Below are positions 16,788 through 47,749 of a stretch of 64,000 bases of DNA, piece after piece. The notes under the pieces were generated by a model. It saw only the letters and a program-made list of their open reading frames with translations, did not search any database and was not told the origin of the DNA. The stretch's first letter is position 1. Each line of letters opens with the position of its first letter. Both the position numbers and the translations under genes were made by a program. Location: assembly GCA_003707065.3 (NCBI GenBank), contig PPXM03000001.1, positions 1,116,001-1,180,000 of the forward strand, in the 5' to 3' direction. This DNA comes from Trigonopsis variabilis. Taxonomy: Eukaryota; Ascomycota; Trigonopsidomycetes; Trigonopsidales; Trigonopsidaceae.

Positions 16788-18469
16788 ATGTCACCCAAGA
16801 GTCGATACACCTATGGAACGGCAGGATTTAGGATGAAAGGAGAGCTCTTAGCTCCAGCAGTGTTTCGAGTGGGAATGCTGGCTGCTCTGAGATCGCAGTA
16901 TTTAGGTGGACAATACATTGGAGTGATGATCACAGCCTCTCATAACCCTCCTGAAGATAATGGAGTGAAACTGATCGATCCAGAGGTACGTTGGGGCAAA
17001 CGCTCTATTGAATCTAGATTAACTTTTGTTTAGGGAGAAATGCTCGAGGTTGGTTGATTTTTCGGTCGTGATCTAACCCCGTTTCAGGCTTCATGGGAGA
17101 CTTATGCTACTAGTTTTTCTAACGCATCCTCAGACGAAGAGTTGGTTTCCTTACATGATAAGTTATGTGAGACGATGAGGATAGACTTGTCTATTCATCC
17201 CAAAGTGGCCTTTGCTCGAGATACTCGGTAGGAGAAAGTTGTTACTAAAACTGACGGTACAGTCAAACGGGACCAATGCTGGTTGAAAACTTGAAAAAAG
17301 GACTGAATACTGCGGATGCCGTGTACACAGACTATGGGGTCTTGACTACCCCGCAACTGCACTATATCGTGAGATGTCTCAATACCGTGAATTCTCCAAA
17401 CTCTTATGGCGAGCCGTCGGAAGAAGGATACCACACCAAGTTGTCCCAGGCATTTAAGAGACTCCAGTTTGGTCAGCCAAAGGTTTCTATTACTGTTGAC
17501 TGTGCCAATGGAGTGGGCGCCATTCAATTAGAAAAGTTGCAGGCTCATCTTGCTCGATCCATTCTCGATATAACCATCGTTAATGGCGCCACTAATGATT
17601 ATGCCAGTCTCAACTGTCACTGTGGGGCCGACTACGTGAAGACTCAACAGCGGGCTCCTAAGAACGTGGTGCTCGAGCCCTTCAAACTCTATTGCAGTTT
17701 TGACGGTGATGCTGATCGTATAATCTTTTACTTTTCTGATCAGGACGAGAAATTCATGCTCTTGGACGGTGACCGAATCGCCTCGCTTGTGTCGATGTTT
17801 ATCTCCGACCTCATTCGTGATATCGGCATCGAAGGCCTAAGTGTTGGCGTTGTCCAGACAGCGTATGCCAACGGCAACTCTACTGAATATATCCGGAACA
17901 GTCTCCATCTTCCTGTCGAGTGCACCCCGACTGGAGTTAAGCACCTCCATCATTCAGCACAGCGATACGACATTGGGGTCTATTTTGAAGCCAACGGGCA
18001 TGGAACAGTGCTCTTCTCCGAAGATTGCTTAACTTCTTTAAAAGCTTACGAGGCTAAGACGCCAGCCCAAAAGACTGCTCTCGACCAGTTGTTGGCCCTC
18101 GTGGATGTCATCAACCAAACTGTCGGCGACGCTATTTCAGACTTATTGATGGTCTTGACTATCCTGTCTCATAAGAACTGGAGCGCCAGCGAGTGGGAAT
18201 CAATCTATACGGATCTTCCCAATCGTCTAATCCAGGTGGTGGTAAACGATCGAACTGCTTTCAAGACAGTTGACGCTGAGCGACGACTGGTGTCACCACC
18301 AGGGCTCCAGGACAAGATTGATGCCTTGGTCAAAAAGTATACGCGGGCTCGAAGTTTTGTCCGAGCGAGTGGGACCGAGAATGCAGTCAGAGTCTATGCC
18401 GAAGCCAGTTCTAGGGCCGAAGCGGACGAGTTGGGTCTAAAAGTGACGGAACTCTTGAATCCTTATTAA
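16788..18469 (+). CDS. PCM1: Phosphoacetylglucosamine mutase
   Basis: Interconverts GlcNAc-6-phosphate and GlcNAc-1-phosphate on the route to UDP-GlcNAc, needed for chitin, N-glycans and GPI anchors. Four exons: 16788-16985, 17034-17048, 17088-17227, 17263-18469, with introns of 48, 39 and 35 nt; 519 aa. Exon 2 is 15 nt and encodes GEMLE, matching the family block LxDPxGEML. Substrate and catalytic motifs: YGTAGFR near the start, the phosphoserine loop TASHNP, the metal loop DGDADR, and the sugar/phosphate-binding [14 protein letters not shown] at the end. The N-terminus is about ten residues shorter than in animal AGM1 but reaches the first conserved block. The long frame 17276-18469 alone would be only the C-terminal part. 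Confidence 0.95.
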
Positions 18470-28269: not shown

Positions 28270-29799
28270 CTATGCTCCGGTGTCTTCTTCCTCTGACCGT
28301 TCTTTAATAATCAAGTCCTTACCCTCTAGGCGGCGATAGATATCTTTGACATCGTCTGTCGTGGTCTCGAAATGACTGGTGGCATCGTAGCTTTTCGAGA
28401 TAAACACATTATCCTTGGTGCCGTCCTCCAAAGGTTCATACAAAGTGGCAATGCCCATGAACTGCTCCTTAATCGGACCCAAGAGCTTCAAAGCAGGAGC
28501 GATTTCGAGATGTGGCTTGTCCGTCTCGATGATAGTAGATACAATGGCCACATAAAAGTTCTTGGGGGTCACATTGTGGTTGGCAGAGACCATGGCCACA
28601 TAGATATCGTGCTTGCGACCCACTTGGTTTTGAGGAATGACAATCTGGAGTGAATCTAAATTGTCCGTTTTGGGAATAGGATGTTCCAAGATACACATTG
28701 CTCGGATTACACGAGCTGTTTCTCGAACTTTATCAGGGAAATAGGTAGGGTCGCCAATTATTTTCTTGGCTCTGGCAATCTCTTCCCCTGAGCGGATCCC
28801 AACTGCTTTTCCGTCCTCATAGATTATCTCATCGACCGGCTTATCCAACATGTATGTGCCACCATAGATGGCCGAAAGACGAGCAAAGCCTTGCGGTAGT
28901 TCGCCCAGCCCGTAAAGAGGATAGATATAAGGAGACTTGCCATATCTGGCCATAGAAGACAAGTACAGTAAAATCCTTTCAATGGTCTCTCTGGCTGGTT
29001 TATGCACATAATCATCGTCAAGATATAAGGCCATGGCGTGTCCGATAAAGTCGCGCGTGCCAGGCTCAAGACCAAATTTATAATAGACATCGCTCATTGT
29101 CGCCTTATCGAGGTCGAATCCTCCATGAGTAGTAGGATCGTCAGCTCGATAAGCTCCAACAAACTCGAAAAACTTCTTCATCCGGCGTTTCTCAAATAGA
29201 CCCATCAACGGCGATCGAACAGCTTCATATTCCGACGAGGGCACTTTAGCAATATTACCTCCGCGGTAAACATAGCTACCGGAAATTTGCTTGAACTCGA
29301 TATATCTAGTCACGCCGGTGTTGTAAAGAATATTGGTGAGTTCACCATTGGCCATAAGAAACTTGGGAATAAGATCGATATTCCAATCTCTATCACGCCC
29401 AAACGCAGGATCGGGAGTATTACCTGGGCGGAACTTATTATAAAGCTATGATTAATCAAATGTCCACTTGATCTCGTTGTACCTGAGTGAGATTGAGACT
29501 AGCGCTCTCCCTAGAAAGAAGGTCAATATGGATGCGTTTTGTTAATATTTACCCTCCATAATGATCTTGGCGATCAATGTGAAGAACCTTCTTTCCTTCA
29601 ACCGAAAGAATTCCCGATAAAAGACATTCAGTAAGTCCTATCGAGTTAGAAGGGGCTGTCCTTATCAAGATCAAATTACCTGTGCCTATAGTGACTCAAA
29701 TCATCCCAAAGAATGGGAATAACCAGTCGTGTTAACATGCTTATTTAAATAAACTAATCAATTCTCACCTAAAACAATGACGTCGTATTCCTCATCCAT
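28270..29799 (-). CDS. GDI1: Rab GDP-dissociation inhibitor
   Basis: Extracts and recycles prenylated GDP-bound Rab GTPases between membranes and cytosol. Five exons: 29769-29799, 29680-29685, 29553-29637, 29483-29510, 28270-29445, with introns of 83, 42, 42 and 37 nt; 441 aa, normal for GDI. The N-terminus reads [21 protein letters not shown], then [27 protein letters not shown]. The 6-nt exon 2 supplies Gly-Thr of the glycine-rich GTGLTE motif. Later blocks include the Rab-binding [21 protein letters not shown] and [26 protein letters not shown], which distinguishes it as GDI. The open frame beginning at 29355 lacks the first 80 or so residues. Confidence 0.96.
29680..29685 (-). other. GDI1: 6-nt micro-exon of GDI1
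   Basis: Read on the minus strand, GCACAG lies between ...CACTATAG and GTAATTTG. It joins a leading G and a trailing GA to make Gly-Thr-Gly, completing VIVL-GTG-LTEC. The GTGLTE loop is invariant in the GDI/REP family. Skipping the exon keeps the frame but yields VLGLTEC, losing two residues of the loop. Confidence 0.88.
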
Positions 29800-45632: not shown

Positions 45633-46583
45633 TCAGTTTCCAGCTGCTACTGAAGCCTCCTCTCGAACTGCCTTCCTCCGAAGCCGTTCCTCTCGATGTT
45701 TGCGCCGCTGCTCTTTGAGTTGACGCTCGTGCAAGGCTAATTTACGAGCTGCCTTCCGGAAAGCTTTTCGCGACCTTCGCCGCTGGTTCGCGGACTTTTC
45801 CTCCTCTTTTTTCTCCCTTGCTGTAGAGTCACCCTGGTTATTACAATTATTTTCGCCTGTATGAGAGGCGAAGGCTGCTGCTGCTGCTCGTTTTTGGGCT
45901 CTTCTTGCTTGACGTTCCCGTCGGCGTTCTATGATTCGAAACCTCTGTTCATTGAGCATTTTCCCCTGAACGACGTGCATGACATGGACAAGATCATCCC
46001 ATTTTGTGTTTTGATCGTCACAATCCAATAATTGATCGACCTGATGAGAGAAGTTAGGAGGAAAGGTAGCAAGAGTTAGGGCAATTTTTGAGGATTCGGG
46101 AATAGCATAGCGAGTAGGTTCTAAAAGCATGAAGTTACTTTTTAGTGTGGCCATGAATTGTGTGATGTCGCCGTGAACATCAAACTTGGTAGCAAGAATC
46201 CGTCGATAAATGCCCATGTCGATATGTTCGCGATCTGAGCGTCGGTCGTACAAACTAAGCAGTGATTTCCACGCAGCAAAGGCAGTACCACTAAAAACCA
46301 CAATGTCTGAGGTGGCGTGAGGTAAACAAGAAATTAGTAGAAGGCGCACATGAGCATCCATTCGCCTCCATTCACCAGACCGATCTTCCGGAGGATCTTG
46401 GGTTATTATATGGTACAGATCTTGGACCTGCAGCGTGAGCTCAATCATCAATTTCCATCGAGGCCAGTCTGATTCGCCATTTAGGAGGCCGGTGATCTTG
46501 ACAAAGTGATGGATTTCTTCTGGCCTCCCAATCCATTCGTTTCTTGTTGGTACCGCAGCTGTTTCAGGGTTGTCTTCGCTCAT
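45633..46583 (-). mobile_element. Copia-type (Ty1/copia LTR) Gag-like frame, stand-alone
   Basis: 316-codon frame resembling the Gag polypeptide of Ty1/copia LTR elements (UBN2/retrotran_gag type): the NGESDWPRWKLMIELTL block, then TAFAAWKSLLSLYD, and a segment with KFDVHGDITQFMATLK. A very basic, coiled C-terminus follows (RRRERQARRAQKR). No zinc knuckle, protease, integrase or reverse transcriptase is visible in or next to it, and I saw no terminal repeats. The frame itself looks whole. It may be an old remnant of an element or a Gag-derived host gene kept for a cellular role. Age cannot be judged without relatives. Confidence 0.6.
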
Positions 46584-47749
46584 GCTCAGAGCAGATGAGC
46601 GACTTGTCTTGGAATAGGTTGCGCCTTGTTCCGTTGGGGCTATAAGGAGATGATCTGAAACGGGTCACTGGGACTTCGAATTCAACGTCAGAGCAAACTG
46701 CTAGGCGCCTATCAATATATCATTCGAATGTTGCTCCTTGCAAAAAAAGTGCATCTGGGACGTACCGAAAGCATCTCTACAGTATAACTCTGTCCCACAA
46801 GAGCAAGGTCAGCGGTGATATCAGATAGCATTTTCTTGTGCCTGATGCACAGCTTGAACTGTAGTGATTGATTCCTTGATATTATACACAGAGCTTATGT
46901 AGAGTAAAGGCTTTACTCAGACCTTGGCATGCCGTGCCATAGGTCATGTGGCATGTCGAGAAGGATTTATCAACTCTCCACACTTTCTTATAACAATGCT
47001 AGACATGGTTTGAGTAGATTAATTGTACTATGTGCACTCTCGTCTTTTTTTCACGATTTCAGTACAGAGTCGGGCGGTACTTTTTCTAGAGCGCGAGTGG
47101 GTTTGTGAGAGAGTAAGCCTTTTTTTGTATTATGGAGAGTGTTTTGTACTCATAGATGTTCATAGACTAGCTTCTGTTAATTATTTAGCATTTCTTTTCA
47201 ATTATCTAAGCGTTTGGCGGGACTTTTGCCATTTGCTGTATATGAACTCCAAAAAGAGAGTAACGGTAGGCTGTAACGGCCTCACTCATAGGAGTGGCTC
47301 CAGCATCTTGTTTGAGCGTGTATGAATTCGTTGTCCCCGTTTCGAGTCCTGTGGTGGGTCAATTGGCCGGCACGAGTAATCTGCCACGCCTTTGGCTGTA
47401 AACTCACTGTCACACTTGAGCAGAGAAATCTGGCAGAGAAACAGTGGCCGTGGAGACGGCGTCGGGGATGGCAGCGGGTTTTTCGTCAAGCGAGAAGCAT
47501 AGGGAGGTGCGACTATCTTTTTGGTCTTCCACGGTAGTGGATTTGACTTTTACTATTATTATCCGGCTTAATATGTCTATCTCGTCCTTTTCACACTGCG
47601 CTTCTGACCAGTAACATTTTGCTCGCGTGCCCGACTCTAGATCATCACATTCTCAAACTCCCATCTCACAGACAGACAACTGTACGAATTATGTCGTCTA
47701 CAATACTGATGACGATCCTTTGTCCGTAGAGGCCGAATCAGGGCCTAAA
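46584..47749. other. Intergenic region between Gag-like frame and transporter
   Basis: About 1.2 kb. T-rich stretches around 47045-47120 are visible. Frames in the segment 47023-47540 look like noise. The last ~120 bases may include leader or further 5' exon sequence of the transporter. Confidence 0.4.

Follow-up and report, generated by a model that had tools for sequence, protein, structure and literature searches.

The micro-exon of chicken cardiac troponin T (cTNT) depends on an intronic splicing enhancer. It is constitutive and 6 nt long, as cited in PMC4674806. Among fungi, P450 genes of Phanerochaete chrysosporium carry predicted exons of 6 bp, and introns of 45–55 bp are reported to be frequent (PMC1184071). 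In Trichoderma virens, a micro-exon of Xlr2 forms a switch that is regulated by glucose (PMC11121469). The plant literature adds a 9-nt exon in potato invertase, for which the second intron is removed first, and a 1-nt exon in Arabidopsis APC11, preceded at a distance of 44 nt by a putative branch point; removal of the flanking introns in two sequential steps is proposed (PMC4674806). Plant micro-exons are also described in PMC8831610.

Here we describe a putative 6-nt exon in a fungal gene for Rab GDP-dissociation inhibitor (GDI), which lies in the window, that is, the whole 64,000-nucleotide stretch of DNA that was analysed. This exon resembles those of the P. chrysosporium P450 genes in being fungal, in its length of 6 bp (2 aa) and in its small flanking introns. 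However, the gene family is different, as probably is the species, and GDI is a housekeeping gene in which inclusion can be judged by homology. The size of 6 nt and a putatively constitutive use are shared with the micro-exon of cTNT, which is a vertebrate gene. Plant micro-exons likewise combine a tiny exon with conserved coding sequence, and the branch distance of 44 nt in APC11 is close to the 46 nt of the candidate in GDI. In contrast to GDI, where the exon is predicted from sequence, potato invertase and Arabidopsis APC11 are other genes, from plants, and were verified experimentally. Xlr2 and GDI both represent fungal micro-exons, with glucose regulation being a feature of Xlr2.

A search of part of the literature found no report of a micro-exon in a GDI gene, fungi included, and a search for 6-nt exons and fungal micro-exons found nothing beyond the precedents in P450, cTNT, plants and Trichoderma. 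Exons of 6 nt are already published for fungi (as predictions) and for animals, so the phenomenon is not new, and GDI is a well-supported further example.

Gene structure and identity

The GDI gene occupies positions 29799–28270 on the minus strand and encodes 441 aa in five exons, with no internal stops (Table 1). The protein scores 754.1 bits against the PF00996 profile (cut-off 23), with residues 1–433 aligned to profile positions 1–434 of 436. It is 67% identical to yeast GDI and 61% identical to bovine GDI, and it lies nearer to GDI than to REP, since yeast GDI is matched with 673 bits and bovine GDI with 580, against 134 for REP1. Searches for relatives gave no match in viral contigs. 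In prokaryote genome contigs, the sole match was a weak and partial one of 55 residues in Campylobacter, which for these reasons was rejected as a GDI orthologue.

Table 1. Positions of exons, introns and splice signals of the GDI gene, numbered along the window
Feature	Position	Strand	Basis
Coding exon 1, 31 nt, with the first G of the Gly11 codon at its end	29769..29799	−	splice enumeration and homology
Intron 1, 83 nt, GTGAGA...CACTATAG	29686..29768	−	splice enumeration
A of TTAAC, the leading candidate for the branch point in intron 1, 46 nt before AG	29732	−	inference
Pyrimidine-rich stretch (13/15) between intron 1 branch candidate and acceptor	29708..29722	−	sequence reading
Micro-exon, 6 nt, GCACAG	29680..29685	−	enumeration, ab initio model, Pfam score, shuffles
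Intron 2, 42 nt, GTAATT...CTAAC...GATAG	29638..29679	−	splice enumeration
Exon 3, 85 nt (GLTECLLSG...YGG)	29553..29637	−	splice enumeration
Intron 3, 42 nt	29511..29552	−	splice enumeration
Exon 4, 28 nt (ESASLNLTQ)	29483..29510	−	splice enumeration
Intron 4, 37 nt	29446..29482	−	splice enumeration
Exon 5, 1176 nt, ends at stop codon	28270..29445	−	splice enumeration
Predicted exon joins: included form, exon 1-GCACAG-GACTTACT; skipped form, exon 1 directly to GACTTACT			

Protein evidence for the micro-exon

The initial annotation had placed GCACAG between introns of 83 nt and 42 nt; both sizes and the position (29685–29680, minus strand) proved exact, and the gene is intact to its stop. The six bases are flanked by ...CACTATAG on the 5' side and GTAATTTG on the 3' side. 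They complete Gly11, encode Thr12 and begin Gly13, whose last two bases open exon 3. Introns 1 and 2 are both phase 1, and together they split the Gly-Thr-Gly codons of the N-terminal loop. The conserved loop, GTG-x-TEC, is complete in this GDI only when the 6-nt exon is spliced in.

Enumeration of splice forms agrees with the earlier claim that the loop can be obtained solely through GCACAG. Forms with one intron, at any boundaries, never restored VLG-T-GLTEC, with the best of them placing I, V or E at the Thr position. When all forms with two GT/GC-AG introns were enumerated, VLGTGLTEC came from the combination of 83-nt intron, 6-nt exon and 42-nt intron alone. In an alignment of three sequences (yeast, bovine and the present GDI), VLGTG and TEC were identical, Thr12 and Gly13 included. 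The residue between GTG and TEC is leucine in the present and bovine proteins and isoleucine in yeast. Describing GTGLTE as invariant was therefore too strong, since yeast has GTGITE, but GTG and TEC are unchanged across all three proteins of the alignment.

The skipped form stays in frame and loses 2 aa, as had been predicted and as the spliced forms confirmed, and retention of intron 2 also stays in frame, meets no stop and adds 14 aa. Since skipping and retention both leave the frame open, only homology argues for inclusion. The Pfam GDI score falls from that of the included form to 741.0 bits (a loss of 13) when the exon is skipped and to 735.5 bits when intron 2 is retained. We put the probability at about 0.9 that GCACAG is a genuine coding micro-exon of this fungal Rab GDI and is predominantly included.

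Splice signals and ab initio models

As a reference, 20 introns were chosen from the ab initio gene models of the window; these are model-predicted, and GDI introns 1 and 2 were excluded. They range from 34 to 129 nt (median 38.5) and show that this genome favours very short introns; their donors are mostly GTRAGT-like, their acceptors have the form YAG, and a CTRAY-like branch site sits 6–13 nt from the 3' end. The AG and GT sites reported to flank the micro-exon are present, and all four splice sites around it score inside the range of these 20 introns. Donor 1 scores above 11 of the 20 and acceptor 1 above 16, and the corresponding counts for intron 2 are 19 (donor) and 4 (acceptor). The branch sequence of intron 2, CTAAC, sits 8 nt from the intron end.

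Intron 1 would be the second-longest when set beside the reference introns, and a good branch site is missing at the usual 6–13 nt from its AG. The closer candidates are weak (ATGAT at 15 nt, TTGAG at 10 nt and GTCAC at 6 nt before the AG), and a TTGAG precedes the TATAG taken as acceptor. The poor branch site and this TTGAG speak against the micro-exon. The last five bases of the micro-exon and the start of intron 2 (CACAG|GTAATT) have the form of an AG|GT ratchet, in which the donor is re-created after the first splice. The score of this distal CACAG acceptor falls in the range of the reference introns, and its use would delete the invariant residues. The distant branch site, the CACAG|GT acceptor at the exon end and the stop-free, in-frame character of intron 2 had been overlooked in the initial annotation.

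When the gene was modelled ab initio, with training on the window only and no use of homology, exons of 31, 6, 85, 28 and 1176 nt were chosen. With a looser intron penalty and length prior, the 0-nt ratchet was chosen over the 6-nt exon; this loose-penalty run was dropped for intron counting as it over-predicted introns. By splice-site and composition scores, the 6-nt exon reached 8.5, the 0-nt ratchet via CACAG 8.4 and the skip 4.9. It is homology that decides for the micro-exon, not splice scores, and ab initio support is weak.

Similarity between introns 1 and 2, as expected of an origin by duplication, was no better than that of shuffled sequences. A search for structured RNA at the locus gave a single match below threshold (17.2 bits vs 43), which we take as chance.

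Alternative readings of the locus

Sequences of the form AG-N6-GT are common, at about 3.5 per kb per strand, and the exon could be a chance occurrence in a gene whose functional GDI simply lacks Thr-Gly. AG-N6-GT alone is indeed meaningless; it is the protein constraint that makes the micro-exon significant. Dinucleotide shuffling of the interval, repeated 20,000 times, produced an exon restoring VLGTGLTEC in 8 cases (~4e-4), and in 57 when T, A, S, V or I was permitted at the Thr position. With exactly the missing residues restored, in phase, we regard a chance exon as hardly credible. A reading in which intron 2 is not an intron, and 29685–29638 is exonic and adds 14 residues to the loop of a constant or alternative isoform, draws on the length of the 42-nt intron, a multiple of three, and on its stop-free frame. 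Residue-by-residue matches to yeast and bovine GDI lack any insertion at the loop, and matches to other GDI and REP chains also span this position. Retention moreover lowers the Pfam score by 18.6 bits, and the segment carries both a donor stronger than that of nearly all reference introns (19/20) and the CTAAC branch at a standard distance. The 14-3-3 gene of the window has a 39-nt intron that shares this donor and is likewise in frame, so short in-frame, stop-free introns also occur outside GDI, and this counts further against retention. We consider retention highly improbable.

Skipping could also be a real second isoform within a regulated switch, formed by joining donor 1 to the intron 2 acceptor or by the ratchet at CACAG|GTAATT. 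The resulting GDI, with VLGLTEC in the loop, would be altered or inactive, and Rab recycling would be tuned. Skipping is frame-neutral, the distal CACAG is usable as an acceptor by its score, its use would create a donor anew together with GTAATT, the branch site of intron 1 is weak or distant, and a glucose-responsive micro-exon has been reported in Trichoderma (PMC11121469). Against this, the skip form scores below the 6-nt exon ab initio (4.9 vs 8.5) and is without the invariant residues, and an in-frame length by itself has a chance of 1/3. We judge such a switch unlikely. Very unlikely is the more specific proposal that regulation turns the 6-nt exon on and off, in which the competing TATAG and CACAG acceptors, six bases apart, together with the displaced branch would set the share of GDI with an intact loop; if true, splicing would tune Rab recycling in this fungus.

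Proposed order of intron removal

For the preferred reading, a constitutively coding micro-exon that is predominantly included, the spacing of the splice sites suggests how splicing may proceed. Only six bases separate acceptor 1 from donor 2, so that U2/U2AF on the former and U1 on the latter probably cannot both be bound at once. We therefore infer two successive intron-definition events; in a genome whose introns are mostly 35–50 nt long, the unit of recognition is probably each single intron. Two-step removal of this kind is also what has been put forward for plant micro-exons (PMC4674806). The initial annotation held that recognition must be by intron definition. This is plausible, as introns in the window have a median of 38.5 nt and the paper on the 1-nt exon argues alike (PMC4674806), but "must" is too strong.

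Intron 2 would probably be removed first, since it has the stronger donor and, in CTAAC, a standard branch site. GCACAG would thereby be fused to exon 3 and would need no later recognition as an exon. Intron 1 would follow, via a branch far from its AG, and this distance may relieve crowding or let the sites coexist. Skipped or retained forms would be in frame and would damage the loop, and we expect them to be noise or minor products. For an intron-defined genome, the GDI locus is a small natural experiment on how splice sites separated by only six bases are used, and it poses the question of whether a distant branch site makes such a close pair possible.

The locus also bears on annotation. 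Gene finders that bar very short exons would drop two invariant residues from a core trafficking protein or add fourteen to it, and neither error would be noticed, as all the forms keep the frame.

Other genes in the window

The gene for AGM1 (phosphoacetylglucosamine mutase) contains a 15-nt exon, encoding GEMLE, at 17034–17048 on the plus strand, between introns of 48 nt and 39 nt. This exon is required to match solved AGM1 proteins, and the joined protein is gap-free in alignment with them through DPxGxMLE. Read by eye, both flanking introns hold in-frame stops if retained. Backed by homology, it shows that micro-exons recur in the window and that this genome tolerates them.

The 39-nt intron of the 14-3-3 gene (40197–40159, minus strand) is in frame and stop-free and has the GTAATT donor seen in GDI intron 2. 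Its removal yields ADRYEEMVENMK, which we take to be the usual 14-3-3 sequence. A gene finder relying on open frames would overlook it.

The window also contains a gene for fungal signal recognition particle RNA at 47268–47520 on the plus strand (95.8 bits), which, like the genes present, indicates that the DNA is fungal. On the minus strand, an open reading frame at 45633–46664 resembles, by eye, the gag region of a Copia-type retroelement.
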